Shown one piece after another: positions 1-30,775 of a stretch of 64,000 nucleotides of DNA. The notes beneath the pieces are model-generated. The model did not search any database and had not been told where the DNA came from. It worked only from the letters and a program-made list of their open reading frames with translations. The translations under genes and the position numbers were made by a program. The stretch spans positions 3,625,501 through 3,689,500 of the forward strand of contig CP018227.1 of NCBI GenBank assembly GCA_016865035.1, written 5' to 3'. The first letter of the stretch is position 1; every line of letters starts with the position of its first letter. The stretch comes from Kordiimonadales bacterium IMCC3096 (GTDB taxonomy: Bacteria > Pseudomonadota > Alphaproteobacteria > Minwuiales > Minwuiaceae).

Positions 1-262
1 GTCACTGCATTTCGGCAGCAACAAGATCAGCCTGAACGACGCGAACAATGCCCCGCCGATTGCCAGGGGCAGCGTGCCGGGCAGCGGGAACTACTGCATT
101 CTGACCGATGTGCCGATGGACGAGATCGTGGCCCATCTCGGGGCGCACGACGTCGCCATCGAAGCGGGACCGGGGGAGCGGATCGGGGCGACAGGCCCCA
201 TCATGTCGGTCTACTTTCGCGACCCGGACAACAATCTGATCGAGCTCAGCAACCTCATCTGA
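1..262 (+). CDS. VOC/glyoxalase-family protein, C-terminal part
   Basis: The reading frame is open from the window edge (codon phase starting at base 2), so the N-terminus lies outside the window. The visible 86 residues show the glyoxalase/bleomycin-resistance (VOC) fold pattern: an early LHFGSNKISLND strand and a C-terminal YFRDPDNNLIELS motif whose Glu is the usual metal ligand. VOC enzymes are dioxygenases, isomerases or resistance proteins, and the substrate cannot be told from this fragment. It runs convergently into the hydantoinase gene and the two stop codons overlap by 8 bp (255-262). Family assignment is good; function is open. Confidence 0.8.
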   Translation, partial: SLHFGSNKISLNDANNAPPIARGSVPGSGNYCILTDVPMDEIVAHLGAHDVAIEAGPGERIGATGPIMSVYFRDPDNNLIELSNLI

Positions 263-1682
263 CGGCCAGTGAAGGCTCCGGCAGGGGCGGGTTCGGCCGT
301 TCGCAGGGCAGGAATGTCCCGTATCCGGGGGACTGGAGCGTCTCTCCTTCCTGACTGACAACCTGTCCGCGCACGAGCGTCGTGACCGGCCAGCCGGTGA
401 CCTCGATCCCCTCATAAGGAGTATAGTCGACGGCGTGATGCAGATCGGCGTTGGCGATCGTGACCTTCCGCTCCGGATCCCAGATCGCGATGTCCGCATC
501 CGATCCGATGGCGATGCTGCCTTTGCGTGGACTCAGTCCATAGATCTGCGCCGGTTGCGTGGCCGTGACCCGCACGAAGGTCGGCAGATCGATCCGGCCC
601 TCCGAAATGCCGTTGAACAGCAGGGGCAGCCGCGTTTCCAGGCCCGGCACGCCGTTCGGGACATAGCGGAAGGACGCGTCGGTGCCATGCAGCATCTTTC
701 CGGCCGGATCCTCGAACCGGAACGGTGCGTGGTCCGATGAGAATACCTGGAAGGTGCCGTTCCGAAGGCCCGACCAGATGACTTCCTGATTGGCCTTGTC
801 GCGCGGCGGCGGGCTGCACAGGCATTTCGCCCCCTCGAAGCCGGGCTTCGCCAGATCGTCTTCAGTCAGATAGAGATACTGCGGACAGGTTTCCGCATAG
901 ACCCGCAGGCCGCGACCCTGTGCCGTGTGAATCTGCTGCACGGCCTCCCGGCCCGAAACATGGACGATCAGCACCGGCACATCGACGATCTCCGACAGGC
1001 TGATGGCACGATGCGTGGCTTCCCGTTCCACCGGCATGGGGCGGGAGACCGCGTGGTAGATCGGCGTGGTCAGTCCCGCCTGTTCCAGCCGATCAGTCAG
1101 CCAGCTGATGACGTCACTGTTTTCCGCATGGACCATGACCATGGCCCCCTCCCGCCGCGAAAGGGCCAGCACCTCCAGGATCTGCCGGTCATTCAGCTTC
1201 AGGTCGTCATAGGTCATGTAGATCTTGAAGGACGTGTATCCACGCGCGATCAGGCTCGGGAGTTCCTGTCCGATCACGTGCGCGGTCGGGTCGGTGACGA
1301 TCAGGTGGAAGGCATAGTCGACCACTGCCTTGCCATCCGCGCGTTCGTGATAGTCCTTGACGGCCTCGGTCAGCGATCCGCCCTTCATCTGCAGTGCAAA
1401 CGGCAGGATCGTTGTCGTGCCGCCAGCCGCGGCGGAACGGCTGCCGCTCTCGAACCCGTCGGCGCAGATGCTGCCGTCACCGGATGGCTGGTCAAGATGA
1501 CAGTGCGCGTCGATGCCACCGGGCAGCACAAGCCTGCCTGTCGCGTCGATCTCTCGCGTGCCGGATCCCAGATTCGACCCGAGGGCCGTGATGATGCCGT
1601 CCGTGACGCCGACATCGGCGCGGAAACTTTCCGAAGCAGTGCCGACGGTACCGCCGCGTATCACGAGATCGAAGTCAGCCAT
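255..1682 (-). CDS. D-hydantoinase / dihydropyrimidinase-family cyclic amidohydrolase
   Basis: A 475-residue metal-dependent amidohydrolase that opens cyclic amides such as dihydropyrimidines, hydantoins or allantoin. The whole binuclear metal site is readable: His60 and His62 (GGIDAHCH), Lys153 (SFKIYMTY, the carboxylated lysine), His185 (VMVHAE), His241 (LIVHVSG) and Asp317 (SSDHAPF). Spacing and Tyr155 match the D-hydantoinase/dihydropyrimidinase branch. I start at 1682 (MADFDLVIRGG). The frame runs upstream into the previous gene, but that extension is arginine-rich shadow. It is the last gene of the leftward run, 11 bp after the racemase-superfamily gene, so ring opening is probably a late step of the pathway encoded upstream. 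The exact substrate is not deducible. Confidence 0.93.
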   Translation of the reverse strand: MADFDLVIRGGTVGTASESFRADVGVTDGIITALGSNLGSGTREIDATGRLVLPGGIDAHCHLDQPSGDGSICADGFESGSRSAAAGGTTTILPFALQMKGGSLTEAVKDYHERADGKAVVDYAFHLIVTDPTAHVIGQELPSLIARGYTSFKIYMTYDDLKLNDRQILEVLALSRREGAMVMVHAENSDVISWLTDRLEQAGLTTPIYHAVSRPMPVEREATHRAISLSEIVDVPVLIVHVSGREAVQQIHTAQGRGLRVYAETCPQYLYLTEDDLAKPGFEGAKCLCSPPPRDKANQEVIWSGLRNGTFQVFSSDHAPFRFEDPAGKMLHGTDASFRYVPNGVPGLETRLPLLFNGISEGRIDLPTFVRVTATQPAQIYGLSPRKGSIAIGSDADIAIWDPERKVTIANADLHHAVDYTPYEGIEVTGWPVTTLVRGQVVSQEGETLQSPGYGTFLPCERPNPPLPEPSLAVR

Positions 1683-1693
1683 GGTCCGCTCCC

Positions 1694-2428
1694 TCAAAGA
1701 TCGCCGAGATCGGTGAACAGTCGGCCCCAGCCCTCGATATGACGGGGCGGTACGCCGGCGGCGCGCAACGCGCCCCACACGGCAGTCGAAATGCTGTCAT
1801 AGATCGGGATGCCGATTTCCGGCTCCATTTCCTCCGCCAGCGCGGCCCCGGCCAGGTTGGTGCAGAGGATGACAATTCCGTCGGGCTTGGCCTGCGCGAC
1901 ATCCCGGATCATCTCCCGCAACTGGTCCGGGGTTGTCAGGGCGAAGTCGAAATTGACCTTCACACCGAGATGACGCTCGGCGACGCAGTCGTAGCCTTCC
2001 GATCTGAAGTTCTCGATGATTCCGGTCTGGACGTCGTCGATGTAGGGGGTGACCAGACCAAAGGTCCGTACCCCTGCCAGCTTGAAGATCTCCGAAAGCG
2101 CCAGCACCGAGGACGAGGCCTTGATTCCCGTACGCGCCTCGATTGCCTCACACAGGGCGACGTCCTTGTCGAAGCCCAGCCATCCGGCTGACGTGCCATT
2201 CCAGCAGAGGGCATCGCAATGTGCGTCTGCCAGCAGGTCTGCGGCGGTCAGCATCGGCTCCAGATCGAACTGCGCAAGCGCCTGGTCGCTGAGTGATATC
2301 TCGGTGACCCTGAAGCGTCCGAAGTGCGCGGTTGCCTCGGGCATTCCGGCCAGCATGGCGCTGGTCACCGGTTCCAGTATCGTGTTGGAGGATGGCGTCA
2401 GCATCCCCAGGCGCAGCGGGTTTGTCAT
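1694..2428 (-). CDS. Asp/Glu racemase superfamily protein (maleate isomerase / arylmalonate decarboxylase-like)
   Basis: 244 residues starting with the TPSSNTILEP signature of the maleate cis-trans isomerase / arylmalonate decarboxylase branch. In true maleate isomerases two cysteines flank the active site (a CTS motif and a CTN motif). Here the second is present (ILCTNLAG, Cys189) but the first position is Gly78 (NGTSAG). A Gly/Cys pair at about residues 74 and 188 is the known pattern of arylmalonate decarboxylase. The protein may therefore act as a decarboxylase or a one-base enzyme instead of an isomerase; Cys75 close by is an alternative acid/base. It lies 16 bp downstream of the molybdenum hydroxylase large subunit and 11 bp upstream of the hydantoinase. 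Confidence 0.85.
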   Translation of the reverse strand: MTNPLRLGMLTPSSNTILEPVTSAMLAGMPEATAHFGRFRVTEISLSDQALAQFDLEPMLTAADLLADAHCDALCWNGTSAGWLGFDKDVALCEAIEARTGIKASSSVLALSEIFKLAGVRTFGLVTPYIDDVQTGIIENFRSEGYDCVAERHLGVKVNFDFALTTPDQLREMIRDVAQAKPDGIVILCTNLAGAALAEEMEPEIGIPIYDSISTAVWGALRAAGVPPRHIEGWGRLFTDLGDL

Positions 2429-2444
2429 CTGTCAGTCTCCATGA

Positions 2445-4751
2445 TCATTCGGCGGCTGCATCGAGCGCGGCCAGCACTTTCTCCGGGGTGAAGGGCAGGC
2501 TGGTCAGGCGCACGCCGGTCGCATCCTCGATGGCGTTCGCGACGGCGGCCGAGACGCCCAGCATTCCGGCCTCGCCGACGCCCTTGGCCCCCATCGGACC
2601 CGGACCCATACCCTGTTCCAGAATGAAGGACTGATAACGGTCGGGCAGGTCGCTGGCACGGGCCACGCGATAGTCCAGTGGCGTGGGGACGGCCAGCTCG
2701 TCTTCCTCGTTGTAGGTGATCTCCTCGAACAGCGTCTGGGCAAGGGCCACCAGGGTGCCGCCCTCATCCTGTCCGCGGACACCGCCGGGGTGCAGCGTGT
2801 GTCCCGCATCCACACCCGTCACCAGATCGTTGATGTGGATCTCTCCGGTCTCCCGGTCGACGCTGAGCGACACACCGACCCAGTGGGGCATCCAGTAGAG
2901 ATGCTTTGCGCCGAAGGGGGCATCGGCTTCCTTGGGATACTGGACGAACCCGTCTGCACTCAGTTCGAAGCCGAAACGGCCGAACTTCTTCCGGACTAGC
3001 TCCTTCAGATCGAGCGACAGGCCCTTGCCCGTTACCTTCCACTCGCGCAGATCCAGATCCGCGGCCGCACAGTCCAGTTCGCCCGCCGCCAGTTCCAGTA
3101 TCTCGCCCCTCAGCTTCTGCGCGGCGCGCCAGACCGCGTTGCCGGTCAGCGTTGTCGCACAGCTTGCGTGGGTGCCCTGGTCGAACGGCGTCACATCCGT
3201 GTCGATAGCGGCGTAACGGACCCATTCGCGAGGCACCTTCAGAACGTCGGCAACCAGCCCGCTGATGACGGTGGTTGCGCCCTGACCGATCTCGATCGCG
3301 CCACAGAGCACCAGTACACGGCCGTCGGTTGTCACCTTCACCGTGGCCTTGCCAAGGCGTCCGAAACTTCCCCCGTCCTTCAGTCCGATGGCGAAGCCCT
3401 TGCCGTGCGCCCAGGGTCCGTCGGTCGGCACATCGACATGCCGGAGATCACTGACAACACGGTCGAGACCCTCCGCGAAATCGGCATCGACCTTGCTGTC
3501 GCCGTCCTTGAAGGGCTCGCCCGGCGGGATCAGATTGAGCCGCCGGAAGGCAATCGGATCCATCCCGATCCGTCGGGCGATCATGTCGATCTGGCTCTCT
3601 GAGGCGTAACTGGCCTGGGTGCCACCCATTCCCCGATAGGAACCGGCCGGTATCGTCGTGGTCCGGATCACGCGCGAATGGGCGTGGTAGGCCTGCCAGC
3701 GGTAGGGGCCGGACGACCGGTAGGCCGCGCGTGCGCAGACCTGTGCGCTGGCATCGGCATAGGCACCGCCGTTCAGGTCGATCTCCGTGCGTCTGGAAAG
3801 CAGTTTGCCCTGCGCGTCGACAGAGGTCGTCAGCACCAGATCGCCATCGTGCTGGCTGAGGGTCAGCATCGACTCGTCCAGGGTCATCAGCAGGCGCACC
3901 GGCGCATTGGCCAGCATCGTCAGCAACACGGCCAGCGGTTCGTGCTTGCAGTAGCTCTTGCCGCCGAACCCGCCGCCGACATAGGCGGTGCGCACGCGGA
4001 AATGGCCTTCCGGCAGACCGAACAGTTCCGAAAGGTCCTGGCGCAGGACGAAGGGGTCCTGATTGCACGACCAGAGCTCGATGCGGTCGGTCAGCTGCTG
4101 GGCAACGCAGATCCAGGGCTCCATGTAGAAATGCCCGATCCGCGAGAAGTGGAAGCGGTCGGTGAAGACATGGGCCGCACCTGCCTCGACGGCGTCGATG
4201 TCGCCATCCTCGAAGTCATAGGAGAACAGCACGTTCTTGGCGGGTTCGTTCGCCGTCCGCGTATCCCGTCCGAGCTTCATCGGGACGTTGGGATGCTTCT
4301 GGTCGAACAGCTCGGGCGCAGCGTCCGATCGTGCCTCATGAATGTCCATGACGGGCGGCAGTAGCTGATACGAGACATGGATCAGTTCCATCGCACGGAA
4401 GGCCGTGGTCTCGTCGACGGCAACGACTGCGGCAACGACATCCCCCTCGAACCGCACGCGGTCGGTGCAGATGACGGGCTGATCGTGGACCCAGTTGCCG
4501 TAAGTGGTCTGTTTCAGCAGGCCCAGGTCACGGCCCGTCGCTACCAGGCGCACGCCTTCGACGGCCTCTGCCCTGGACGTGTCGATGGCGATGATCCGTG
4601 CGTGCGCATGCGGGCTGCGCAGCAATCGGGCTTCGAGCATGCCGGGCAGGGTGATGTCCCCTGCAAATGGTCCTTCGCCGCTTACCTTGTCACGTGCATC
4701 CTGACGGGCAGTGTCGCTCAGCTTGAGGTTCTGGCGGAGTGTATCGGGCAT
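2445..4751 (-). CDS. Molybdenum hydroxylase large (molybdopterin) subunit, xanthine dehydrogenase/CoxL family
   Basis: 768 residues carrying the molybdopterin-cytosine-dinucleotide domain of the xanthine dehydrogenase family, which inserts water-derived oxygen into an electron-poor C-H, typically on N-heterocycles or aldehydes. Visible motifs are VGGGFGGK (about 258-265), the substrate-side loop SYRGMGGTQA (about 371-380) and the C-terminal KGVGEAG with the catalytic glutamate. It lacks the AYRCSFR selenocysteine-type loop of CO dehydrogenase, so CO oxidation is unlikely. The start at 4751 shares one base with the stop of the 2Fe-2S subunit (TGATG), implying translational coupling. It partners with the next two upstream genes as a three-subunit enzyme. 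Confidence 0.93.
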   Translation of the reverse strand: MPDTLRQNLKLSDTARQDARDKVSGEGPFAGDITLPGMLEARLLRSPHAHARIIAIDTSRAEAVEGVRLVATGRDLGLLKQTTYGNWVHDQPVICTDRVRFEGDVVAAVVAVDETTAFRAMELIHVSYQLLPPVMDIHEARSDAAPELFDQKHPNVPMKLGRDTRTANEPAKNVLFSYDFEDGDIDAVEAGAAHVFTDRFHFSRIGHFYMEPWICVAQQLTDRIELWSCNQDPFVLRQDLSELFGLPEGHFRVRTAYVGGGFGGKSYCKHEPLAVLLTMLANAPVRLLMTLDESMLTLSQHDGDLVLTTSVDAQGKLLSRRTEIDLNGGAYADASAQVCARAAYRSSGPYRWQAYHAHSRVIRTTTIPAGSYRGMGGTQASYASESQIDMIARRIGMDPIAFRRLNLIPPGEPFKDGDSKVDADFAEGLDRVVSDLRHVDVPTDGPWAHGKGFAIGLKDGGSFGRLGKATVKVTTDGRVLVLCGAIEIGQGATTVISGLVADVLKVPREWVRYAAIDTDVTPFDQGTHASCATTLTGNAVWRAAQKLRGEILELAAGELDCAAADLDLREWKVTGKGLSLDLKELVRKKFGRFGFELSADGFVQYPKEADAPFGAKHLYWMPHWVGVSLSVDRETGEIHINDLVTGVDAGHTLHPGGVRGQDEGGTLVALAQTLFEEITYNEEDELAVPTPLDYRVARASDLPDRYQSFILEQGMGPGPMGAKGVGEAGMLGVSAAVANAIEDATGVRLTSLPFTPEKVLAALDAAAE

Positions 4752-5263
4752 CAGTCCGCAGCCTCCGCCGTGGTTGTCTGTGCTTGTGCCTGGCGTTGCG
4801 CGGCCACCATCTCGATGGCTTCGATGATGGTCTGATAGCCGGTGCAACGGCAGACGTTGGCGTCCAGCCAGTCGCGGATGGTCTGGCGGTCGGGTGACGG
4901 ATGCTCCGCCAGCAGGGCCGTCGCCGACACCACCATGCCGGGTGTGCAATAGCCGCACTGGAAGGCGGAACACGCGATGAAGGCCTGTTGCACGTCGGTC
5001 AGCCCGGTGGCGTTCCCGGACAGGCCCTTCACGGTGGTCACCTCCCGGTCCGCGACCAGAAAGGCAGGTGTCAGACAGGATGTTGTCGGGATGCCGTCCA
5101 CCAGCACGGTGCAGACGCCGCAGACACCCTGATCGCAACTGACGCGGACGTCGATCTCACCCAACTGCTCGCGCAGCAGGTCGGCCAGCATGACCTGCGG
5201 CTCGACGGCGGCGGTACGCCCGACACCATTCAGCCGGAACTTCAGGGCGATCAGATCACTCAT
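4751..5263 (-). CDS. Molybdenum hydroxylase small subunit, two [2Fe-2S] clusters
   Basis: 170 residues with both cluster-binding sets of the xanthine dehydrogenase small subunit: a plant-ferredoxin type set, Cys43, Cys48, Cys51 and Cys63, and a C-terminal four-helix set, Cys103, Cys106, Cys138 and Cys140 (CGYC and CRC motifs). It passes electrons from the Mo centre to FAD. I start at 5263 (MSDLIALKF), where an AGGCGAG ribosome-binding site precedes the ATG and the start overlaps the FAD-subunit stop by four bases (ATGA). Sits between the FAD and Mo subunit genes, in the medium-small-large order. Confidence 0.95.
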   Translation of the reverse strand: MSDLIALKFRLNGVGRTAAVEPQVMLADLLREQLGEIDVRVSCDQGVCGVCTVLVDGIPTTSCLTPAFLVADREVTTVKGLSGNATGLTDVQQAFIACSAFQCGYCTPGMVVSATALLAEHPSPDRQTIRDWLDANVCRCTGYQTIIEAIEMVAAQRQAQAQTTTAEAAD

Positions 5264-6120
5264 GCGGCGCTCGCCTTTCTGGATGTTGCAGTGCCCACAA
5301 GCAGTCGCGACAGCACCACGGGGACGGCGCGCCGACGCCAGACGCCCGAGATATTGACGCGTTCCCGCATGATCGGCAGACCGTTGCACCAGTCTTCCGC
5401 AACGCGGCGCGCTAGTGCCGGTGACAGCGGCAGGTCAGCACCCGCCGGCAGGTCAAGCCGTGCCACCCGGGGCAGGTCGTGCGCGCCCGCCACCGCCGCG
5501 TGCCAGGCACCGTCGCCATTGTGTCCGACAGTGACCAGGAACCCGGGCAGGTGACTGCGGTCATGCTTCAGGACCCGCGCACCGGCAGGGATGCGCACTT
5601 CGGTCAGCAATGCGCCGAAGGCAGCCGGCTTGGTGGAACTCGAAAGCCAGGCGGCCGGCAGTTCGATGGGTCCGTCGACGGTTGCGAAGACGACCGTCGC
5701 GCCGGTCGCCATCAGTACCGGCAGAATGTCGTAGTGCGCCTTGCGGGCCATCAGATTGCCGCCGACCGTGCCCTGATGGCGAATGCGGACATTGGCGATC
5801 GGTGCCCAGGCCGCCGCGACGTCGGGCAGGGCGTCAAGCACCAGGCCGTTCCGTCCCAGTTCGTTCAGACGGACACCCGAGCCGATGCTGATGTATCCCT
5901 CGCCGACCGTGATCGTGCGAAGCTCCGCAATGTCGCGCAGCAGAACGATATCGGTCCATTCGACACCGGTCTTCATGCCATTCAGGAGGTCGATGCCTCC
6001 GCCCATGAAGGCGGAGTTGGGCAACGCGGCACGCGCGGTCACCGCTTCGTCTATGGTTCCGGGCCTGTGCAGCCGGAAGGGCGCGATGCGCTTCCGGCTT
6101 CTGGGGACGGGATCAATCAT
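5260..6120 (-). CDS. Molybdenum hydroxylase FAD-binding medium subunit (CoxM-like)
   Basis: 286 residues. The two FAD contacts of the family are visible: FMGGGIDLL near residue 38 and RIRHQGTVGGNL at about 112-123. The protein takes electrons from the [2Fe-2S] subunit and delivers them to NAD, quinone or another acceptor. The first residues are basic (PRSRKRIAPFR), and there is no signal peptide, so the enzyme is probably cytoplasmic. Starts 18 bp downstream of the Rieske beta-subunit gene and overlaps the small-subunit start by 4 bp, so the hydroxylase and the ring oxygenase are likely co-expressed. Confidence 0.92.
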   Translation of the reverse strand: MIDPVPRSRKRIAPFRLHRPGTIDEAVTARAALPNSAFMGGGIDLLNGMKTGVEWTDIVLLRDIAELRTITVGEGYISIGSGVRLNELGRNGLVLDALPDVAAAWAPIANVRIRHQGTVGGNLMARKAHYDILPVLMATGATVVFATVDGPIELPAAWLSSSTKPAAFGALLTEVRIPAGARVLKHDRSHLPGFLVTVGHNGDGAWHAAVAGAHDLPRVARLDLPAGADLPLSPALARRVAEDWCNGLPIMRERVNISGVWRRRAVPVVLSRLLVGTATSRKASAA

Positions 6121-6138
6121 CGGGGTGTCGTCCTTGGC

Positions 6139-6651
6139 TCAGAGATAGATCGCCATAAGCTGATGGGCGGCATCGCAATTGACCATGCGGACGGTCTTGC
6201 TGCGGATCGCCAGACCGTCGGCGGTTTCCGTCAGGCGATACAGGTAGCGTCCGCCATAGACCGTCTGTTCCTCGACGCGGTACTCCAGCATCAGGAAGCA
6301 GGCGCTTGCCTCGATGTCGCCGTCCGTATCAGGCGACGGCCCGACCATCACGTTGGTGACCAGATGCGTCGTCCGGGACGGCGGTGTCTGGGCGTGGACC
6401 TCCGGGTGGCGCAGACGGCGCACACGCATCTTCATCATCGTCCTGTCGTCGTACATGATGGAGGCGCGCGTATCGGGATCGGTCTGATCGTCGGCTGTCG
6501 GCACCCAGTAGACGCCGTCGTCGGTGAACAGGTCCATCCAGTCTTCCCAGCGCTTCTCGTCCAGCATGCGTGCCTCGGCGTAGAGGAACTGTTCGATCAC
6601 GTCGCGGGCGGGCAGGTCGGCTGCTTGGGTCTTGGCCAGTGTGGCGGTCAT
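6139..6651 (-). CDS. Aromatic-ring-hydroxylating oxygenase beta subunit
   Basis: About 170 residues of the SnoaL-like ring-hydroxylating dioxygenase small-subunit family: RDVIEQFLYAEARMLD, then LFTDDGVYWVP, and a C-terminal SKTVRMVNCD strand. The beta subunit is structural in alpha3beta3 Rieske oxygenases. Two in-frame ATGs exist at 6657 and 6651. A GAGGG ribosome-binding site abuts the first and is six bases from the second, so 6651 is preferred. Directly follows the alpha-subunit gene. No ferredoxin or reductase gene for this oxygenase is present nearby, so electrons must come from elsewhere or via another partner. Confidence 0.9.
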   Translation of the reverse strand: MTATLAKTQAADLPARDVIEQFLYAEARMLDEKRWEDWMDLFTDDGVYWVPTADDQTDPDTRASIMYDDRTMMKMRVRRLRHPEVHAQTPPSRTTHLVTNVMVGPSPDTDGDIEASACFLMLEYRVEEQTVYGGRYLYRLTETADGLAIRSKTVRMVNCDAAHQLMAIYL

Positions 6652-6662
6652 CGTCATCCCTC

Positions 6663-7946
6663 TCAGGCGCTCATGTATTTCAGCCAGACGTCGTTGTACT
6701 GCTGCCGCAGCACGAACTCGCTGGATCCCGGCGCGCCAAGCCCGCCGTAGTTGTTCGGGGTTTCGGCACCCATGTGACGCGCGAACATCACCCAGTCCGA
6801 GCCCTGTGCATGCAGACCCTCCTGCGCGCGTTCGAACACCGCGACGTCGTCGGTCTGGATCATCGAGGCCGGGGAGTGCGTCGCCGCGACCGAACGGACC
6901 GCGTATCGGTTCCATGCGTCCGGCGCGCCCTTGAACAGGATCGGATAGATGCGGACTTCGGTCCGGTTCACATCGATGGGCATCACCATGCGGAAATGCT
7001 GCCCCATCGCCTGGAACGTCAGGTTGGGATAGATCATCGAATTGAAGCGGTCGTAGGTCAGTATCTCGCGCGTGCGTTCCTCACCATGCCGCTCGACCAG
7101 CATCGCCTTCAGTTCCTTGAACGCCATGCCGTCCGGATCGGGAACCTGGGGCACGGCACCCTGGTAGCCGTGACCGTTGGCGAAGCCGTGGACACCCATG
7201 GGATCGAAATCGACCGGGCTCCTGGTGCCGGGCTTGTAGAAGCTGGGGCCGCCGCCATGCCTGGAGAACTGGCGTCCGTCCTCATCCAGTGTCGAATGAT
7301 GGGCGAACGGGGCGTGATACAGATCGACGCCATTGTCCATCTGCAGCTTCCAGTTGGCGCGCACGATGTATCGGTTGCACCCGGCCTGGGCCAGGATCTC
7401 GCCGTCCGGTGCGCGATCACACAGGTCGTCGATGCTGCCCTTGATCGGGCCAAGATGATCGTCCAGCGACATTCCGTCGGGACTGAGAGACACGAAGATG
7501 AACCCGCGATAGCTGTCCACCCGTGGCGGGCGGCCGAGATCAAGCGACGGGTCCTTCATGAATTCGTCGCTGTAGCCGTCCTTGTAGGGGATACCTGCCA
7601 GTTTGCCGTTCGCGCGGTAGTTCCAGCCATGATAGGGGCAGCGGAAACCGGGGCTGTTGCCTTCCGCGGTGGCGCACAGCTTCACCCCGCGATGGCCGCA
7701 GCGGTTGAACATCACATGGACCTCGCCATTGCGGTCCCGGGTGATCAGAAGCGGCTGTCGGCCGATGCGGGTGGTGATGTAGTCGTTGGGATCTGGCACC
7801 TGGCTCTCGTGCGCCACGAAGACCCACATGCGCCCGAAGATGCGATCCATCTCCATCTCGAAGATGTCCGGATCCACGTACAGCCGCCTGTGAACCCGGT
7901 CTGGTTTGACCATGGTCTGCAGATCGTCATGGGCATACATCGGCAT
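6663..7946 (-). CDS. Aromatic-ring-hydroxylating oxygenase alpha subunit (Rieske)
   Basis: 427 residues. The N-terminal Rieske domain has Cys83-x-His85 (NRCGHRG) and Cys103-x2-His106 (CPYHGW). The catalytic domain has the mononuclear iron triad in the pattern Asp208-x2-His211-x4-His216 (DLYHAPFAHH). It would carry out dihydroxylation or monooxygenation of an aromatic or heteroaromatic ring. Its gene is followed 5-11 bp later by the beta subunit, and preceded by the TRAP permease, so the ring oxygenase is directly linked to substrate import. The natural substrate is not predictable from motifs. Confidence 0.93.
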   Translation of the reverse strand: MPMYAHDDLQTMVKPDRVHRRLYVDPDIFEMEMDRIFGRMWVFVAHESQVPDPNDYITTRIGRQPLLITRDRNGEVHVMFNRCGHRGVKLCATAEGNSPGFRCPYHGWNYRANGKLAGIPYKDGYSDEFMKDPSLDLGRPPRVDSYRGFIFVSLSPDGMSLDDHLGPIKGSIDDLCDRAPDGEILAQAGCNRYIVRANWKLQMDNGVDLYHAPFAHHSTLDEDGRQFSRHGGGPSFYKPGTRSPVDFDPMGVHGFANGHGYQGAVPQVPDPDGMAFKELKAMLVERHGEERTREILTYDRFNSMIYPNLTFQAMGQHFRMVMPIDVNRTEVRIYPILFKGAPDAWNRYAVRSVAATHSPASMIQTDDVAVFERAQEGLHAQGSDWVMFARHMGAETPNNYGGLGAPGSSEFVLRQQYNDVWLKYMSA

Positions 7947-7966
7947 TGTTCTCCCCGGGATACGGT

Positions 7967-9961: not shown

Positions 9962-10000
9962 CTTCTGCCAATCTGCTGGATGGAGCTGCGGGAAGCCGGA

Positions 10001-11008: not shown

Positions 11009-11235
11009 CTCGGGTTACCTCACCTGTTTGGCGAAGCCATGGACCGGGCGACAAGTCTTCGGGATGCGGGCCGATCAGGCTCCTCGATGCCTGAAAGTGT
11101 TCAGGTCATGCCGCAGTGCAGCAAATCCAAATTCTGAATGGCCGCATTCGCCCTATCTATAGGCTGCCTCAATGGGAGGGGCCTGGGCCGGGCCGGATCG
11201 CAGTGTCCGGGCGGCGCGCGCACAGGGTCCGGAAT
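11009..11235. promoter_or_regulatory. Putative promoter/operator region of the leftward catabolic operon
   Basis: The 227 bp between the TAXI receptor start and the LysR stop have no coding signal. A short dyad CCTAT-ct-ATAGG lies at 11152-11163. The CCCTAT half also occurs close to the LysR start (12140-12146), so the LysR protein might bind both places. This is inference from a short shared motif. Confidence 0.4.
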
Positions 11236-17729: not shown

Positions 17730-17739
17730 AGCCCGCAAC

Positions 17740-24051: not shown

Positions 24052-25128
24052 ATGAGCATGAAATCGATGACACGGCTGACGACGGGACTGGCGGTTGCCG
24101 GTATCGTGAGCGCACTGGCGCTGCCCGCCGCGGCGGACGGCAAGTTCGACGGTGTGACACTGCGGGTCGCCACCTTTGGCGGATCGTGGAAGGAAAGCCT
24201 CGACGCGACCATCACCCCGAAGTTCGAGGCCCTGGGCGGCAAGATCGAATATGTGACCGGCAGCCCGCAGGCAAACCTCGCGAAACTGATCGCCGGGCGC
24301 GGACGGGCGCCGTTCGACGTGATGGAGATCCTGGACGCGCAGGTCCCTGACTTCGCGGCAACGGACTTCCTTGCCAAGATCGACCTGTCGAAGGTCCCCA
24401 ACACCAAGTACCTGGCCGACTTCCAGTACAACGACATGATGGTCGCGTCCTGGAATACGCAGGAAACCATCTGTTACGACAAGGACAAGTTCGCGGAGCT
24501 TGGTGTCGCGCGGCCGACCACCTATTCGGATCTGGCGATCCCCGCGCTGGAAGGCCGTATCTCCATCCCGGACATCACGTCGGGCGGCGGTCTGGCCAAC
24601 TTTGGCGGCTTCGCCTATGCGGCGGGTGGTGACGAGGTCAATGTCGAACCCGGCATCGAACTCATCAAGAGCCTGAAGGCGCTGAAGTTCTGGTCGCGCG
24701 GCGGCGAGACCATCACGCAGTTCGGCAGCGGCGACATCTATGCCGCCGTGGTCCATGCCGGCTGGTGCGTGCGCGCCAAGAATGCCGGTTATCCGGTGAC
24801 CAGCGTGCATCCCGTGATCAACGACAAGATCAAGGGTGTTGCCAAGGAAGGCTGGCTCGGCGTCATGAAGTCCAGTGAGCACAAGGAAGCCGCTGTCTGG
24901 TTCATCAACGAGTATGTCGGCAGCGACTTCCAGTACCGGGCGGCCACCAAGAACGGCGTCATGCCGGTCAACCAGGAAGTGATCGCCAGGCTTGGCGAAG
25001 ATCCGGTGCTGTCCGAGATGCTGGAACTCGATCCTGCAATGATCGCGAAGGCCCTGCGCGTCGATTACTCCAAGGTCGATACCAGCGACTGGATCGACCA
25101 GTGGAATCGGATGGTGTCCACCCAGTAG
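24052..25128 (+). CDS. Periplasmic substrate-binding protein 2 (PotD-like paralogue)
   Basis: 358 residues. Signal peptide MSMKSMTRLTTGLAVAGIVS followed by ALALPAAA, cleaved before DGKFDG. An AAGAAGGA ribosome-binding site precedes ATG 24052. Nearly colinear with binding protein 1, but residues differ in ligand-pocket regions (for example ATFGGSWKES against ATWGGSNKAA), so the two may bind related but different ligands or the same ligand with different affinity. Lies 57 bp before the ATPase gene. Confidence 0.93.
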   Translation: MSMKSMTRLTTGLAVAGIVSALALPAAADGKFDGVTLRVATFGGSWKESLDATITPKFEALGGKIEYVTGSPQANLAKLIAGRGRAPFDVMEILDAQVPDFAATDFLAKIDLSKVPNTKYLADFQYNDMMVASWNTQETICYDKDKFAELGVARPTTYSDLAIPALEGRISIPDITSGGGLANFGGFAYAAGGDEVNVEPGIELIKSLKALKFWSRGGETITQFGSGDIYAAVVHAGWCVRAKNAGYPVTSVHPVINDKIKGVAKEGWLGVMKSSEHKEAAVWFINEYVGSDFQYRAATKNGVMPVNQEVIARLGEDPVLSEMLELDPAMIAKALRVDYSKVDTSDWIDQWNRMVSTQ

Positions 25129-25185: not shown

Positions 25186-26262
25186 ATGTCCAAGGTTACT
25201 TTCCGCAAGGCCGTAAAGCGCTATGGCAACTTCACGGCGCTGCAGCCTCTGGATCTTGATATTCGGGAGGGTGAGTTCCTGACGCTTCTCGGCCCGTCCG
25301 GATGTGGCAAGACCACCACCCTCCGACTGGTGGCCGGCTTCATCCAACCGACAGAAGGGTCTGTCTATATCGGCGACGAGGACGTGACGGGGAAACCGCC
25401 GCAGAAGCGCGGCATCGGCATGGTCTTTCAGGACTATGCCCTGTTCCCGCACATGACGATCGAAGAAAACATCGGTTTTGCCCTGAAGGAACGCGGTGCG
25501 TCAGCGGGCGAGATCAAGACACGGGTCTGGGACCTGCTGCAGCTGGTCGAGTTGCCAGGGGTGAAGGACCGCTATCCGACGGAACTGAGCGGCGGCCAGC
25601 AGCAGCGGGTCGCTGTCGCCCGCGCGGTGGCACATACGCCACGGGTGCTGCTGATGGACGAGCCGCTGGGCGCGCTGGACCTGAAGTTGCGGGAATCGAT
25701 GCAGATCGAGCTGCGCAATATCCAGAAGAGCCTCGGTATCACGACAATCTACGTCACGCATGACCAGATCGAAGCCATGAACATGTCCGACCGCATCGCG
25801 GTCATGAACGAGGGCGTGCTGGAACAGATCGGGTCGGCGGAGGAACTCTACGACACGCCGAAGACCAAGTTCGTTGCGGACTTCATCGGCCAGATCAACC
25901 TGTTGCCCGTAACCGGCGCGGAGCAGCGTTCCGATCATGCGGTTGCAGGCTTCAATGGCAGCGAGATCAAGGTGGTCATGCCTGCGGAGCGGCGGGTGCC
26001 CACGGGTTCGGCGGTACTTGGTGTCCGCCCCGAGCAACTGACGATCGTGCCCAAGGAAACCGCCGTCAACGGTGCCAACCGGCTGGATGGTCAGATCATG
26101 TCGACCCGGTTCGTCGGCAACGTCATCAAGATCGAGGTGGGCATCGGCATGGCGCAGACATTCGTCGTGGACATGCACCCGAGCGCTGTCGCCGGACTGA
26201 CGGCCGGCGCCGAGGTGGGCGTTGTCTGGCAACCGGAAAGCGGCTTTCTGCTGGAGGACTGA
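25186..26262 (+). CDS. ABC transporter ATP-binding protein (PotA-like)
   Basis: 358 residues. Walker A GPSGCGKTT (36-44), signature LSGGQQQRVAVARA, Walker B LLMDEPLGALD and a switch His in YVTHDQIEAMN are intact. A C-terminal TOBE/MOP-like domain (about residues 230-355, VLGVRPEQLTIV) is typical of PotA/UgpC-type ATPases. Energises the two permeases at 21061-22844. Ends 4 bp before the aldolase start, so the aldolase is co-transcribed. Confidence 0.95.
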   Translation: MSKVTFRKAVKRYGNFTALQPLDLDIREGEFLTLLGPSGCGKTTTLRLVAGFIQPTEGSVYIGDEDVTGKPPQKRGIGMVFQDYALFPHMTIEENIGFALKERGASAGEIKTRVWDLLQLVELPGVKDRYPTELSGGQQQRVAVARAVAHTPRVLLMDEPLGALDLKLRESMQIELRNIQKSLGITTIYVTHDQIEAMNMSDRIAVMNEGVLEQIGSAEELYDTPKTKFVADFIGQINLLPVTGAEQRSDHAVAGFNGSEIKVVMPAERRVPTGSAVLGVRPEQLTIVPKETAVNGANRLDGQIMSTRFVGNVIKIEVGIGMAQTFVVDMHPSAVAGLTAGAEVGVVWQPESGFLLED

Positions 26263-26266: not shown

Positions 26267-27043
26267 ATGCAAGCAAGCACGAAAGACTCCGGGCAGGACG
26301 CCCGGTTCACCGCCGCGGAATGGCGGCAGCGCCAGCACCTCGCGCTGGCCCACCGCATGATCCAGCGATCCGGTTTCGATGACCTGACCTACAACCACCT
26401 GTCAGTGCGGATTCCGGATCGGCCCGACCATTTCCTGATCAAGCGCGAAGACGAGATGTTCGAGCAGGTGACCGCCTCCAGCCTGCTGAGTTCCGGTTTT
26501 CATGGTGATGACCCGAGCTCTCCCGCAGGGCGGGTCAGCCCGGGCGGACTGGTCATTCACGGTGGTATCCTGGATGCGCGTCCCGACGTGAATGCGGTGT
26601 TTCACACGCACAGTCCGGCCAACATGGCCATCGGCGCGCAGAAATGCGGTCTGCTGCCTCTGTCGCAGCATGCGCTGATCTTTCACGACAAGCTGAGCTA
26701 CCACGACTTTCACGGGTTCGAGTTCGAGCCGGAGATGCGGCGCCTGCTGGTGCGTGACCTGGCCGGGAACGACGTGATGATCCTGCGCAATCATGGTGTG
26801 CTCGTCACCGGCCGCACGGTCGCGGAGGCATTCTTCCGGCATCACTATCTCGAAATGGCCTGCCGGGCGCAGGTCGCGGCCATGAGCGTCGGCGGTATCG
26901 AGCACCTTGTCTGGCCCGACGAGAAGACCGTCGCACATGCCGCCGGCCAGATGGCTGCGCGCGGCCCCGTCGATGAGAATGGACGCGACTGGACCGCTCT
27001 GACGAAGCTCGCGAAGGATGTCTGCCCGGACTATGCGGTCTGA
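26267..27043 (+). CDS. Class II aldolase/adducin-family protein
   Basis: 258 residues. Zn-site histidines are visible in VFHTHSPANM and in the later ILRNHGVLVTG, as in fuculose-1-phosphate aldolase and related decarboxylases/aldolases. The N-terminal part (RMIQRSGFDDLTYNHLSVRI) is the subfamily found in many catabolic operons. Starts at ATG 26267, 4 bp after the ABC ATPase stop. Ends convergently with the amidase gene, overlapping it by 13 bp. Could perform retro-aldol cleavage or decarboxylation of a ring-derived hydroxyacid; substrate unknown. Confidence 0.9.
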   Translation: MQASTKDSGQDARFTAAEWRQRQHLALAHRMIQRSGFDDLTYNHLSVRIPDRPDHFLIKREDEMFEQVTASSLLSSGFHGDDPSSPAGRVSPGGLVIHGGILDARPDVNAVFHTHSPANMAIGAQKCGLLPLSQHALIFHDKLSYHDFHGFEFEPEMRRLLVRDLAGNDVMILRNHGVLVTGRTVAEAFFRHHYLEMACRAQVAAMSVGGIEHLVWPDEKTVAHAAGQMAARGPVDENGRDWTALTKLAKDVCPDYAV

Positions 27044-28425
27044 AGATGGACCGGCGGCCGTCGCAGATGGAAGGATGTGACGCTCTGGAACCGCATGGCG
27101 GTGGCCAGCAGCAGGCTCTCCGAGAACGGACGTCCGATCAGCTGGAACGCCAGCGGCATGCCGTTCGGGCCGAAGCCCGCGGGCACGCTCAGTGCGGGCA
27201 ATCCGAGATAATTGGCGTAGCGGGTATGTCGCGCGGAGGCGGTGAAGGCGGCCTCGATCGAACGGGGATCGCGGTCCCCGGCATCCGCCTCCGGCGCCTC
27301 ATCGGGATAGACCGGCGCCAGGATGACATCGGCGCTGGCGAAGGCCGCCGACACGAAACGCTCAAGCATCGGCTGACGCAGGGAAAGCGCCTCGATGTAG
27401 CGTGTCGCCGGGATCAGAAGCCCTTCGCGAATGACGCTGCGCGCCTCGATCCCGATGGTTTCCGGGGCTTCGCGCAGACGTCTGCCGTGCATTGTCGCGG
27501 CCTCGCATTTGACGAGTATCTGCTGCAGGTCGTTGCAGGCAGCCACATGCTGCAACTCTACCGGAAACGGCGCGAAGCCGAGGTCCGCGAACACCGCCAC
27601 CGCTTCCGTGAGTGCCTGGCGCGTCCAGTCCGCGATGCCTTCGTCCGCGTCGGACAGCGCAACGCCGACCCGGACGCCGTCCAGCGTCTGTGGCAAGGGC
27701 GCGACAGCGGGCGCGCCGAGCGTGGTCGGGTCCGCCGGGTCAGGTCCGGCGATCACCTGGAACACCGTGGCGCAATCTTCTGCGGAGCGGGCCACGGGGC
27801 CAAGACAGTCCATGGACCAGCTTCTGGCGAGCGCACCGCTGCGGCTGATCCGTCCATAGGTCGGCTTCAGGCCCGTGACGCTGCACATGGCAGCGGGCAG
27901 GCGGGTCGATCCTCCCGCGTCGGACCCGATGGAGAAAGGCACCAGCCCGGCGGCGACCGCAGCGGCGGATCCGCCGGACGAACCGCCGGTGATGCGGCGC
28001 GTGTCCCAGGGGTTGGTGCAGCGCCCGAAGTGCGCGTTGGCCCCGGTTCCGCCGGCTGCGAATTCATCCATGTTGAGCGCCCCCAGCGGGACCGCGCCCG
28101 CCGCGAGCAGGCGGTCCGCGATGGTCGATTGCGGTCCCCCGGATTCCTGCGACGGAATCGCGCCGCCGGTCGGTCGCCGCTCCGCCGTGACCAGCACATC
28201 CTTCCAGGCCATGGGAATGCCGTGCAGGGGACCGCGCGTGCGTCCCGCGCCACGCTCACGGTCGGCATTTCCGGCGGCTGTCAGGGCGCTCTCCGCAGCG
28301 ACATGAATGAAGCAGTTGAGGTTGACCGCAGTCCCGGCGATGCCGGCAAGCCGCTCCTCGGCAAGCGCCACGCTTGTGGCCTCACCCCGGACCATCTTCT
28401 CGGAGAGCTGTGCAACCTCGCCCAT
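27031..28425 (-). CDS. Amidase-signature family hydrolase
   Basis: 464 residues from ATG 28425. The Ser-cisSer-Lys triad is complete: Lys75 (MAWKDVL), Ser149 (ITGGSSGGSAAAV) and nucleophile Ser173 (GSDAGGSTRLPA). Hydrolyses a linear amide, as in GatA, biuret, allophanate or enantioselective amidases. GTG 28428 is also in frame, but ATG 28425 overlaps the stop of the small upstream gene as TGATG, supporting coupling. Transcribed opposite to its neighbours on both sides. It could remove nitrogen from the opened-ring product. Confidence 0.92.
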   Translation of the reverse strand: MGEVAQLSEKMVRGEATSVALAEERLAGIAGTAVNLNCFIHVAAESALTAAGNADRERGAGRTRGPLHGIPMAWKDVLVTAERRPTGGAIPSQESGGPQSTIADRLLAAGAVPLGALNMDEFAAGGTGANAHFGRCTNPWDTRRITGGSSGGSAAAVAAGLVPFSIGSDAGGSTRLPAAMCSVTGLKPTYGRISRSGALARSWSMDCLGPVARSAEDCATVFQVIAGPDPADPTTLGAPAVAPLPQTLDGVRVGVALSDADEGIADWTRQALTEAVAVFADLGFAPFPVELQHVAACNDLQQILVKCEAATMHGRRLREAPETIGIEARSVIREGLLIPATRYIEALSLRQPMLERFVSAAFASADVILAPVYPDEAPEADAGDRDPRSIEAAFTASARHTRYANYLGLPALSVPAGFGPNGMPLAFQLIGRPFSESLLLATAMRFQSVTSFHLRRPPVHLQTA

Positions 28426-28640
28426 CACGAGCCGTCCGATGCCTGGCGCAGCGCGGCGCCGAAGGCAAACGGGTCGCAGATGAAGGGTTCCGCGTCCGCA
28501 AAGTCGCGCGTCACCTCATTCAACCGAAGGGCTGTCCGTTCGACACCGGTCAGTTCTCCGGGCGTGATGGTTACTCCCTGCATGTCTGCCGCCAGCCAGT
28601 TCGCACCTGCCGACGGCTCTCTGCCAGCCTCATCCCGCAT
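28425..28640 (-). CDS. Small protein coupled to the amidase (possible AtzG/DUF4089-like partner)
   Basis: 71 residues with no motif that I recognise with certainty. It has one of the best ribosome-binding sites in the window (GGAGGTGG, about six bases before the ATG at 28640), and its TGA shares a base with the amidase ATG, so it is almost certainly translated with the amidase. The C-terminal half (ALRLNEVTRDFADAEPFICD) resembles in length and position the small AtzG-type or DUF4089 partners of amidases such as AtzE and GatA-like enzymes. That assignment is an inference from context. Confidence 0.65.
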   Translation of the reverse strand: MRDEAGREPSAGANWLAADMQGVTITPGELTGVERTALRLNEVTRDFADAEPFICDPFAFGAALRQASDGS

Positions 28641-28706
28641 TGGACCACCTCCGGTTCAGACGATCATGGTGCACTGCACCATGGCACAAGACCACAGGAA
28701 AATCGC

Positions 28707-30065
28707 ATGACTTCGATACCCGAACTGCCAACCGGCGCTTTCAAGGGCTATGAACGCAACAACCTGCAATCGCTGGCGCCTGATGACGAGCTTACGAAGG
28801 TCGGCCCCGGCGAGCCGTGTGGCGAATACCTGCGCCGCTACTGGCATCCGATCGCCATGGCGTCGATGGTCGGTGAACTGCCGCTGCGTATCCGGCGGCT
28901 GGGCGAGGACCTGGTCCTGTTCCGTGGCAAGACCGGCGAATATGGCCTGCTGCACCTGCTCTGCAGTCACCGCAATGCCTCGCTGGAGTATGGCATCGTG
29001 ACGGATCGGGGGCTGCGCTGCTGCTACCATGGCTGGCTGTTCGGGACCGACGGAACGATCCTGGAAACCCCCGGCGAACCGGCCACCAGCAAGATTGCGG
29101 GGCGGACGTGCCACGGCGCCTATCCGGTCGTCGAGTTCAAGGGCATGATCTTCGCCTACATGGGACCGCCCGAGCTGATGCCCGCGTTCCCCTACTTCGA
29201 CACCATGGATCTGCCGGATGACGAGATGGTGCCCTATCTGGTGCCATCACCCGCGAACTGGGTGCAGATGTTCGAGAACGGCATCGATCCCTATCATGTG
29301 TCCTTCCTGCATTCGCTGATGAACCGGGTGCAGTTCCAGGCCAATCTGGTGAACCTGCCGACCGTCGACTATCACGAGCGGGCGGCGGGCAACGGCATCT
29401 TCTATACCTCCACGCGTCGGGTGGAGGATTTCCTCTGGTTCCGCATTCACGACCACATGCTGCCGAACTTCTCCCAGAACGGGGGGATGCATGTCGATGG
29501 CGACAAGTCGACCTACTTCGTGCGGACGGGGCTGACCCGGTGGGTGGTGCCTGTGGATGACGAGAACTCCATCACCATCGCCTGGCGACATTTCAACGAG
29601 GAGACCGATCCTCACGGGCGGGGACGGAAGGATCTCTGCGGCTATAACAGCGTCGACTTCTATGGCCAGACCGACCAGCGGTCGTACGAGGAGATGCAGC
29701 GCGACCCCGGCGACTACGAGGCCTGGTCGAGCCAGGGCCCGCGCACGGTGCACAAGCGTGAGCGGCTGGGTGCCACCGACCGGGGTGTCAGCCTCTACCG
29801 CCGTCGGCTCAGGAACGCGATCAAGAACCACGGCAAGGGTGAGGATCCGATGCTGCCGACCGACAGGGTCACATCGCCGATACCGACCTATGGCGGCGAT
29901 ACGGTGCTGCGGGTCAGGCGTTCGAACAGTGAGGACAGCCAGACCATCTCTGATATGGCAAAGCGGGTGGCCGACATCTACCGCAGCGGCGATGACATGA
30001 TCGGCGCGGAACGGCGGGAACACATCCGCAAGGGCCTCAGAAGCTATGAGGCCGACCTGCAATGA
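28707..30065 (+). CDS. Rieske [2Fe-2S] oxygenase (phthalate/vanillate-type, single component)
   Basis: 452 residues. Rieske ligands Cys86-x-His88 (LLCSHRN) and Cys105-x2-His108 (CCYHGW); mononuclear iron site Asp194-x2-His197-x4-His202 (GIDPYHVSFLH). The domain layout fits the phthalate 4,5-dioxygenase / O- and N-demethylase group, which has alpha subunits only and so fits the lack of a beta-subunit gene here. Starts at ATG 28707 (CAGGAA upstream), divergent from the small amidase-partner gene with only 66 bp between them. Coupled by ATGA to the cupin gene. A reductase is not encoded nearby. Confidence 0.92.
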   Translation: MTSIPELPTGAFKGYERNNLQSLAPDDELTKVGPGEPCGEYLRRYWHPIAMASMVGELPLRIRRLGEDLVLFRGKTGEYGLLHLLCSHRNASLEYGIVTDRGLRCCYHGWLFGTDGTILETPGEPATSKIAGRTCHGAYPVVEFKGMIFAYMGPPELMPAFPYFDTMDLPDDEMVPYLVPSPANWVQMFENGIDPYHVSFLHSLMNRVQFQANLVNLPTVDYHERAAGNGIFYTSTRRVEDFLWFRIHDHMLPNFSQNGGMHVDGDKSTYFVRTGLTRWVVPVDDENSITIAWRHFNEETDPHGRGRKDLCGYNSVDFYGQTDQRSYEEMQRDPGDYEAWSSQGPRTVHKRERLGATDRGVSLYRRRLRNAIKNHGKGEDPMLPTDRVTSPIPTYGGDTVLRVRRSNSEDSQTISDMAKRVADIYRSGDDMIGAERREHIRKGLRSYEADLQ

Positions 30066-30775
30066 CCGTCTCATCTGTTCCCAACAACAGCCGCATGGGT
30101 GAGGCAAGGCCGGACGTCGATCACGATGGCCCCTTTCGCACGCAGCTTGATCCGCTGCTATCGGACTTCGAGGAGGGAAAAATCGACGGTGCCGGTTTCC
30201 AGCGAGGCGTGATTGCCGCGCTGGAACGCGATGACGTTCAGCAGACGGTCGCCGCTGCCGCCGATCAGGCGCGGAGCAAGGGCGCGGATGTCACGATCTG
30301 GCGCAAGGACTTCGGCGGACGCGATATCACCATCAGCATCATCCACCTGCAGCCTGGTGAGGTGCATCCGCCGCATCACCATCACAATGTGACTTCGGTG
30401 CAGGTGATACTGGAGGGACGGATCTCGGGCCGTGAGTATGAGCGTGTGCGCCGGATCGACGGCAATCATGTTCTGTTGAAACCATTGTCGAGCGGCCAAC
30501 TGCCCGTCGGCAGCCGTCTTCTGGCCCACGAATGGGCGCGCAATGCCCACTGGTTCTCTGCAGGCAAGGACGCTCCCGCCCTGATCTTCAACTGCAATGC
30601 ACGAGGGTTCGAGAAATCGACGTTCGATCCTGCTGACGGGCGACCGCTGGGTCGCAGGCTGCTTCATCCCTCCCGAATGGTCTCGGACGAGGGCGTCATC
30701 GCGAGGGAGATCGATGTCGTGGAAGCCTATGAAACCTTCGGCAAGGCCGACCTGCAGGACTGGCACACGACCTGA
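30062..30775 (+). CDS. Cupin-domain protein
   Basis: 237 residues. About 80 N-terminal helical residues precede a cupin barrel with the metal-binding stretch EVHPPHHHHNVTSVQVILEG and a second-motif histidine in the AHEWARNAHWFSAG region. Could be a small dioxygenase, an isomerase or a metal-binding regulatory protein. The 4-bp overlap with the Rieske oxygenase suggests that the two act on one substrate in sequence. No closer assignment possible. Confidence 0.8.
   Translation: MTVSSVPNNSRMGEARPDVDHDGPFRTQLDPLLSDFEEGKIDGAGFQRGVIAALERDDVQQTVAAAADQARSKGADVTIWRKDFGGRDITISIIHLQPGEVHPPHHHHNVTSVQVILEGRISGREYERVRRIDGNHVLLKPLSSGQLPVGSRLLAHEWARNAHWFSAGKDAPALIFNCNARGFEKSTFDPADGRPLGRRLLHPSRMVSDEGVIAREIDVVEAYETFGKADLQDWHTT

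Follow-up and report, generated by a model that had tools for sequence, protein, structure and literature searches.

The DNA considered here, referred to as the window, is a stretch of 64,000 nucleotides at positions 3625501–3689500 of the 4.29 Mb replicon of Kordiimonadales bacterium IMCC3096 (CP018227.1), which is assembled as one contig from an organism placed by inference in the genus Minwuia. Its left part, together with 115 nucleotides beyond its edge, holds what is probably a 31 kb catabolic island of Minwuia comprising 27 genes, from a VOC gene (−115) to a cupin-like gene (30775). A sequence-only reading of the window had described the interval 255–30775 as a candidate supercluster for the breakdown of nitrogen heterocycles and cyclic ureides. 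Every gene class that it listed was recovered by Pfam and NCBIfam profile scans, which covered the open reading frames (ORFs) picked as genes and not all ORFs of the block, and the active-site motifs are intact where they were checked. A complete molybdenum (Mo) hydroxylase with an extra large subunit is indeed present, but the list was incomplete: the arylmalonate decarboxylase (AMDase)-like protein, three Fe(II)/2-oxoglutarate-dependent (Fe/2OG) oxygenases (PhyH, TauD-like and IPNS-type), the cupin-like protein, the second binding protein and the VOC protein had been missed. Start sites were refined for chosen genes, and that of the Rieske β subunit was set by its position after the α gene. 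The genes are as follows, numbered from the first nucleotide of the window.

−115 to 262 (1 to 262 inside the window), + strand: VOC/glyoxalase-family gene, convergent with the hydantoinase gene; 86% identical to the copy in the related genome G082 (tblastn) and also in the related genome G291; Pfam Glyoxalase found on the G082 copy
255 to 1682, − strand: D-hydantoinase/dihydropyrimidinase; TIGR02033 and PRK13404 above cut-off, metal site
1694 to 2428, − strand: one-cysteine AMDase-like protein of the Asp/Glu racemase superfamily; Pfam Amdase
2445 to 4751, − strand: Mo hydroxylase large subunit 1; Pfam/NCBIfam, nearest solved structure 4-hydroxybenzoyl-CoA reductase (4-HBCR; 1rm6)
4751 to 5263, − strand: Mo hydroxylase 2Fe-2S subunit; profile scan, cysteine motifs
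5260 to 6120, − strand: Mo hydroxylase FAD subunit; Pfam FAD_binding_5
6139 to 6657, − strand: Rieske oxygenase β subunit; Pfam Ring_hydroxyl_B
6663 to 7946, − strand: Rieske oxygenase α subunit of the benzoate-dioxygenase type; profile scans, Rieske motif
7967 to 9961, − strand: TRAP transporter fused permease; TIGR02123, 609.5 against a cut-off of 320.65
10001 to 11008, − strand: TAXI-family TRAP binding protein; TIGR02122, 129.8 against a cut-off of 84.35
11236 to 12132, − strand: LysR-type regulator; Pfam
12451 to 13266, + strand: PhyH-family Fe/2OG oxygenase; Pfam PhyH
13505 to 14410, + strand: TauD-like Fe/2OG oxygenase; PRK09553, 205 bits, below the cut-off of 313
14407 to 16722, + strand: Mo hydroxylase large subunit 2; Pfam/NCBIfam
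16719 to 17729, + strand: IPNS-type Fe/2OG oxygenase; Pfam, best solved-structure match thymine dioxygenase
17719 to 19134, + strand: MmgE/PrpD-family protein; Pfam, solved-structure matches
19125 to 20054, + strand: PuuE-like hydrolase; NCBIfam, solved-structure matches
20051 to 21064, + strand: D-2-hydroxyacid dehydrogenase; Pfam/NCBIfam
21061 to 21915 and 21912 to 22844, + strand: two Pot-type ABC permeases; Pfam/NCBIfam
about 22919 to 23980 and 24052 to 25128, + strand: two related binding proteins; Pfam
25186 to 26262, + strand: ABC ATPase of the Pot type; TIGR01187, 367.6 against a cut-off of 355.6
26267 to 27043, + strand: class II aldolase/adducin-family protein; PRK07044, 223.6 against a cut-off of 207
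27031 to 28428, − strand: AtzE-like amidase of the amidase-signature family; below the AtzE cut-offs
28707 to 30065, + strand: second Rieske oxygenase (Rieske2) of the LigXa_C/phthalate-dioxygenase type; Pfam, solved-structure match
30062 to 30775, + strand: cupin-like protein; weak Pfam Cupin_1, 19.9 against a cut-off of 22

Neighbours on the same strand overlap by 1–11 bp at about nine joins, which agrees with the coupled runs described in the sequence-only reading, and the single LysR gene that it placed at their centre was found by Pfam. An ORF of 554 amino acids on the + strand (27046–28710) was discarded as a gene, being the opposite-strand shadow of the amidase.

All 26 block proteins that were tested occur in each of two other Minwuia genomes. 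In G082 they lie on one contig in the same order with a mean identity of 82%, and in G291 they lie in the same order on three contigs with a mean identity of 87%. The VOC gene adjoins the hydantoinase gene in all three block-bearing genomes. In the other four Minwuia genomes (G197, G289, G290 and G292) a DNA search with window positions 1–19900 gave short matches only, and the hydantoinase was not found at E ≤ 1e-60. The block is therefore present in three of seven Minwuia genomes. Searches at the level of the class drew on 289 genomes, with rough gene calls in the fetched loci, and none of the searched genomes outside Minwuia showed the full gene assembly. Among 31 genomes, its own included, the MmgE/PrpD protein has further matches above 38% identity only in G291 (88%) and G082 (80%). 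Matches to the Rieske α subunit above 48% identity are confined to Minwuia in both searches made, with a Minwuia sp. match at 91%; one of these, a scan of an 84,980-species collection that detects close relatives only and may omit the source genome itself, returned 24 loci, of which two exceed 90% and the others lie at 45% or less.

The surroundings of the block differ between these genomes. In its own genome it is flanked on the left by genes for an alpha/beta hydrolase (−2732) and a CoA-transferase (−1800) and on the right by genes for a thioesterase (31022–31477) and a protein resembling the large subunit of N,N-dimethylformamidase (DMFase-like, 31474–33720). The order in G289 is alpha/beta hydrolase, CoA-transferase, TRAP genes with two short-chain dehydrogenase/reductase (SDR) genes, thioesterase and DMFase-like gene (one SDR gene and the DctM gene were profile-scanned and the remaining middle genes read by eye), and the SDR/TRAP genes here stand where the block stands in our genome, enclosed by the same outer genes. 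Two short stretches at about −438 to −294 (77 bp at 79% and 59 bp at 85% identity) match DNA of the G289 SDR region and are likely scars of replacement. The left flank of the block in G082 is unrelated to the 20 kb left flank in our genome except for the VOC stretch, and it carries a phage-type integrase gene outside the block, some 1 kb away from the VOC gene. Our own left flank (L115) carries a DDE (group 1) transposase gene at −4221 and an rve-type transposase gene at −16371; no tRNA gene was found within the 64 kb window. Presence and absence among close relatives, with alternative content at the site, is the pattern of a genomic island. Since the gene order is the same in two genomes, the block is missing from four, other genes stand at the G289 site and the left flank is variable, sequence comparison indicates that the block is inherited as a unit, and it probably also moves as one.

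The thioesterase and DMFase-like genes to the right of the block (31022–33720) are common to three blockless Minwuia genomes. The DMFase-like gene was ruled out as a block member, as the blockless G289, G290 and G292 have it and the block-bearing G082 and G291 do not. The G+C content of the block is 64%, and it drops to 53–59% in three 2 kb bins at about 42001–48000 of the window.

The intergenic region between the LysR and PhyH genes contains one strongly conserved block in three genomes, and the region upstream of the TAXI gene contains one in two genomes. Each of these holds an operator-like element.

11121 to 11149, − strand: element upstream of the TAXI gene, core AGAATTTGGATTTGC at 11121–11135; conserved block, genome-wide pattern search
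12149 to 12171, + strand: element between the LysR and PhyH genes, core AGTATTCGGATTTGC at 12157–12171; inverted repeat GAATA..TATTC, conserved in three genomes

Both promoters beside the LysR gene thus hold a version of AGWATTYGGATTTGC, 13 of 15 positions being identical in our genome and the orientation relative to the operon the same. Allowing at most one mismatch, the AGWATTYGGATTTGC pattern has two sites in 4.29 Mb, both at these promoters, and the reversed control has none; the two exact sites follow by construction, the absence of further sites does not. A match of this kind inside the conservation-chosen blocks arose in 13 of 5000 shuffles, in a test designed after the match was seen. 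A scan for sigma-70-type promoters over 9900–13600 gave no consensus. The 15 bp element common to both promoters supports a single supercluster.

The Mo hydroxylase has its large, 2Fe-2S and FAD subunits, and both the GxGE motif, which we take to carry the catalytic glutamate, and the 2Fe-2S cysteine motifs were found. The two large subunits score below the curated cut-offs for XdhA (394.7 for subunit 1 and 339.4 for subunit 2, cut-off 780) and 4-HBCR (410.5 and 310.9, cut-off 994.55). Large subunit 1 has matches in 19 of the 289 class genomes (E ≤ 1e-90), five of them outside Minwuia at 44–48% identity. These five loci include FAD and 2Fe-2S subunit genes (the ORF of the latter being uncalled in one) and weak Rieske or ATPase matches, and the one in G035 adds a PuuE-like gene. 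No FAD or 2Fe-2S partner of large subunit 2 was found on its own (+) strand, and this subunit probably borrows those of the other operon. The Rieske α subunit is likewise under its curated cut-offs (benA, 249.3 against 780.95; anthranilate, 217.4 against 671.9). Of the solved sequences, thymine dioxygenase (thymine-7-hydroxylase) matches the IPNS-type oxygenase best (E = 4.1e-49). Elsewhere in the class, Mo subunit genes, four Rieske α and two β genes and a TAXI-TRAP system form a single run in locus L064 (G157:C31:1-19000); behind it lie genes that by eye appear to be of the TenA and THI5 types.

The hydantoinase passes two curated models (TIGR02033, 543.9 against 393.25; PRK13404, 778 against 647). 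Its residues His60, His62, Lys153, His185, His241 and Asp317 align with structure 1nfg and do not vary when 10 sequences are aligned. We take these to be the metal ligands (HxH, Lys, His, His, Asp), and the metal site is complete, as had been claimed. Tyr158, Ser290 and Asn343 are also invariant in this alignment and are presumably the residues that hold the cyclic ureide in hydantoinases. In a sister genus, locus L118 (G294:C15:234500-254400) has a hydantoinase gene (65%) within about 5 kb of genes for an IPNS-type oxygenase (37%) and a 2Fe-2S subunit (40%). The hydantoinase B/oxoprolinase-type family PF02538 has seven loci genome-wide and none in the window.

In the adjoining AMDase-like protein Gly78 and Cys189 are invariant in 15 sequences, and the glycine stands at the position of the first cysteine. 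Alignment with AMDase (2vlb) and the subfamily matches Gly78, Cys189, Thr79–Ser80 and Tyr129 to AMDase residues Gly74, Cys188, Thr75–Ser76 and Tyr126. The published AMDase criteria, all twelve of which are required, include these residues, Gly189, Pro14–Pro15 and the pocket residues; the hydrophobic pocket consists of Leu40, Val43, Tyr48, Val156 and Met159, and proteins without features such as this pocket are considered unlikely to act on arylmalonates (PMC4996985). Our protein departs at Gly189 (Thr190, aligned) and at Pro14–Pro15 (Pro12–Ser13, by eye against the published pattern) and lies far below the AMDase model (NF052327, 53.3 against 225), and AMDase proper was ruled out on these grounds. 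Because the AMDase residues are only partly kept and the published criteria demand all twelve, we do not class the protein as an AMDase; it may act as a one-cysteine decarboxylase or isomerase. An ectoine route with EutA was excluded as well (TIGR02990, 68 against 318). Structure predictions of the cupin-like and AMDase-like proteins were of low confidence (mean predicted local distance difference test scores of 36.8 and 42.2) and were not used.

Twelve loci outside Minwuia with an AMDase-like gene were mapped, of which nine are all the matches above 50% in the class search and three were chosen from 45 plasmid records. A relative of the hydantoinase gene lies at most 4 kb away in six (L094, L096, L099, L101, L122 and L123), and none was found within 4 kb in L095, L097, L098, L100, L102 and L121. 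An amidase relative is close to the AMDase-like gene in L096, L121 and L122. In L123, on a Paraburkholderia plasmid (AP028202.1), genes for an AMDase-like protein, a dihydropyrimidinase, a second racemase-family protein and a DUF3830 protein stand in a row behind that for an MFS transporter. The chances seem small that the hydantoinase and its AMDase-like neighbour make up a two-step module new to the literature, in which a carboxylated cyclic ureide would be opened to a malonate-type ureido acid that would then undergo cofactor-free decarboxylation, with the pair spread over alpha- and betaproteobacteria and incorporated in Minwuia into the 27-gene heterocycle island. The recurrent pair poses a separate, testable question for enzymology.

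The PuuE-like protein is close to the PuuE structures 1z7a and 3cl6, yet it scores 390.7 with TIGR03212, below the cut-off of 424.6. It has matches in 100 of the 289 class genomes (E ≤ 1e-40), and a second copy in the same genome (3137628–3138515, 47% identical) lies in a different context. The surroundings of eight mapped PuuE-like loci are mostly dissimilar. One of these, L110 (G226:C11), brings together genes for a PuuE-like protein (61%), a hydantoinase (58%), a creatininase-family protein and a thiamine pyrophosphate-dependent enzyme, and may be a further cyclic-ureide cluster. Among solved structures, the amidase is closest to GatA and biuret hydrolase, and the MmgE/PrpD protein to IRG1-type and IDS-epimerase proteins.

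By the families scanned, none of the pathways compared fits the block, in line with the earlier statement that it matches no standard pathway. The standard purine route was set aside in view of the sub-threshold PuuE-like score and the copy elsewhere, and the reductive pyrimidine, nicotinate and picolinate routes were set aside since the families that define them did not turn up when the chosen ORFs were scanned with Pfam. We propose, with a probability of about 0.5, that the block is an island whose products take up a nitrogen heterocycle or cyclic ureide, oxygenate it, open its ring and process the resulting acids. The LysR protein would sense the substrate or an intermediate and activate both divergent operons, while the TAXI-TRAP and Pot-type ABC systems would import an N-heterocyclic acid or a related compound. 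The Mo hydroxylase, Rieske and Fe/2OG enzymes would oxygenate the ring and strip its substituents, after which the hydantoinase and the PuuE-like enzyme could hydrolytically cleave amide or ureide bonds of the ring. The acid produced by ring opening would be decarboxylated or isomerised by the AMDase-like protein, the amidase would free ammonia, and the MmgE/PrpD, hydroxyacid dehydrogenase, aldolase and VOC proteins would complete the processing of the carbon chain. Many natural nitrogen heterocycles have no known degrader genes, and a bounded unit that is clearly present or absent in closely related species and has one regulator and two importers offers a direct genetic handle on function.

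Several observations weigh against this proposal. Nearly all block enzymes lie under equivalog cut-offs, and no ferredoxin or ferredoxin-reductase family for either Rieske enzyme was found among the ORFs scanned; the proposed substrate class and chemistry are read from the enzyme families. The G291 block is split over three contigs, so that the joins between them are not visible and four genes running into contig ends are incomplete. No second block-bearing genome shows the right-hand junction, since the contigs of G082 and G291 end there. In G290 and G292 no left-hand neighbour turned up in the 18–19 kb read beyond the thioesterase gene, so that the site varies; of the three genomes with the right-hand neighbour, only G289 showed a site with other content. 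Against shuffles of whole intergenic regions the shared element does not reach significance (150 of 2000 for 15-mers, 1068 of 2000 for 11-mers and 171 of 2000 for 19-mers), and its TAXI-side version in G082 deviates from the pattern at two positions. The claim of a single supercluster is upheld by co-inheritance, by the other content at the sister site and by the shared element. Control of the amidase and Rieske2/cupin units by the same regulator finds no such support: the amidase–Rieske2 intergenic region has no conserved non-coding block.

It is possible, if on balance unlikely, that the block brings together two or three distinct pathways that are passed on jointly (a TRAP/Rieske/Mo/hydantoinase set that imports an acid, an ABC/PuuE-like set and an amidase/Rieske2/cupin set), each with its own substrate. 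G157 joins TAXI-TRAP, Mo subunits and Rieske pairs alone, G093 has a PuuE-like gene next to a Pot-type importer, Ruegeria conchae has Rieske2 with an amidase, and the hydantoinase accompanies the AMDase-like protein in half of the mapped non-Minwuia loci. Independent occurrence of the blocks with different substrates, which the sequence-only reading had named as evidence against itself, is in this way half borne out: the hydantoinase with the AMDase-like protein, the Mo trio, the Rieske pair and the PuuE-like protein recur separately. The fixed order in three genomes (one of them in three contigs), the single regulator gene, the element common to both promoters, and the lack of + strand partners for Mo large subunit 2 argue instead for one pathway.

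A known pathway in unfamiliar form, such as one for betaines or N-methylated pyridines (homarine or trigonelline) in which the hydantoinase-type enzyme would open a lactam, is improbable. Minwuia is a marine genus, osmolytes of this kind abound in seawater, and betaine and demethylation routes also draw on these oxygenase families, but the invariant Tyr158, Ser290 and Asn343 are presumably residues that hold a cyclic ureide. No description of homarine-use genes was recognised among the literature search results listed. Highly improbable is a thymine-like route with pyrimidine methyl or carboxyl oxidation, ring opening by the hydantoinase and decarboxylation by the AMDase-like enzyme: the IPNS-type enzyme is nearest to thymine dioxygenase, a 5-carboxylated ring would open to a malonate of the AMDase substrate class, the amidase could free carbamoyl nitrogen and the G294 hydantoinase gene lies near IPNS-type and 2Fe-2S subunit genes, but the AMDase-like protein misses the published AMDase criteria and the ORFs scanned showed neither a dihydropyrimidine dehydrogenase nor a ureidopropionase family.

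Compared with known systems, the block consists of known enzyme families in an assembly that is, on present sequence evidence, unusual, and no compared pathway matches the full set; the literature searches brought up no description of this gene combination among the results listed. Hydantoin and dihydropyrimidine utilisation relies on a D-hydantoinase, a racemase and a carbamoylase. In the block a D-hydantoinase/dihydropyrimidinase likewise adjoins a racemase-superfamily protein, but this neighbour does not have the first catalytic cysteine of racemases, and no M20-type carbamoylase or dihydropyrimidine dehydrogenase family was found in the ORFs scanned. With AMDase the AMDase-like protein shares the superfamily, the glycine at the first-cysteine position, the Thr-Ser pair, the tyrosine and the single cysteine, and it differs in having CTN for CGG and PSSNT for PPA (PMC4996985).

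In the lumichrome (lum) cluster of Nocardioides simplex a xanthine-oxidase-type hydroxylase and then a Rieske dioxygenase act on one heterocycle (PMC12746152), a precedent for a Mo hydroxylase followed by a Rieske dioxygenase that we count in favour of the island proposed here. Both clusters unite amide-hydrolysing enzymes, a xanthine-oxidase-type hydroxylase and Rieske α and β subunits. The P450, the thiamine pyrophosphate-dependent decarboxylase and the Rieske ferredoxin and reductase of lum were not found in the block ORFs scanned, and the catechol dioxygenase has no sure counterpart, only the 125-amino-acid VOC protein, whose superfamily includes dioxygenases; beyond lum as described in PMC12746152, the block has the hydantoinase, the PuuE-like protein, the TRAP and ABC importers and the Fe/2OG oxygenases.

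Plasmid AZO_p3 of Azospirillum lipoferum 4B resembles the block in having TAXI-TRAP beside 2Fe-2S, large and FAD subunits (44% identity to Mo large subunit 2 and 41% to the 2Fe-2S subunit), but the 20 kb read there contains no Rieske, hydantoinase or AMDase-like genes. In Ruegeria conchae (L124, NZ_CP081104.1) a Rieske2 relative (52%) precedes two hypothetical genes, after which come a DUF1116 gene and an amidase gene. Because G157, A. lipoferum and R. conchae carry such module types apart, the block reads as a mosaic of module types found elsewhere, and what distinguishes it is their fixed assembly in Minwuia.

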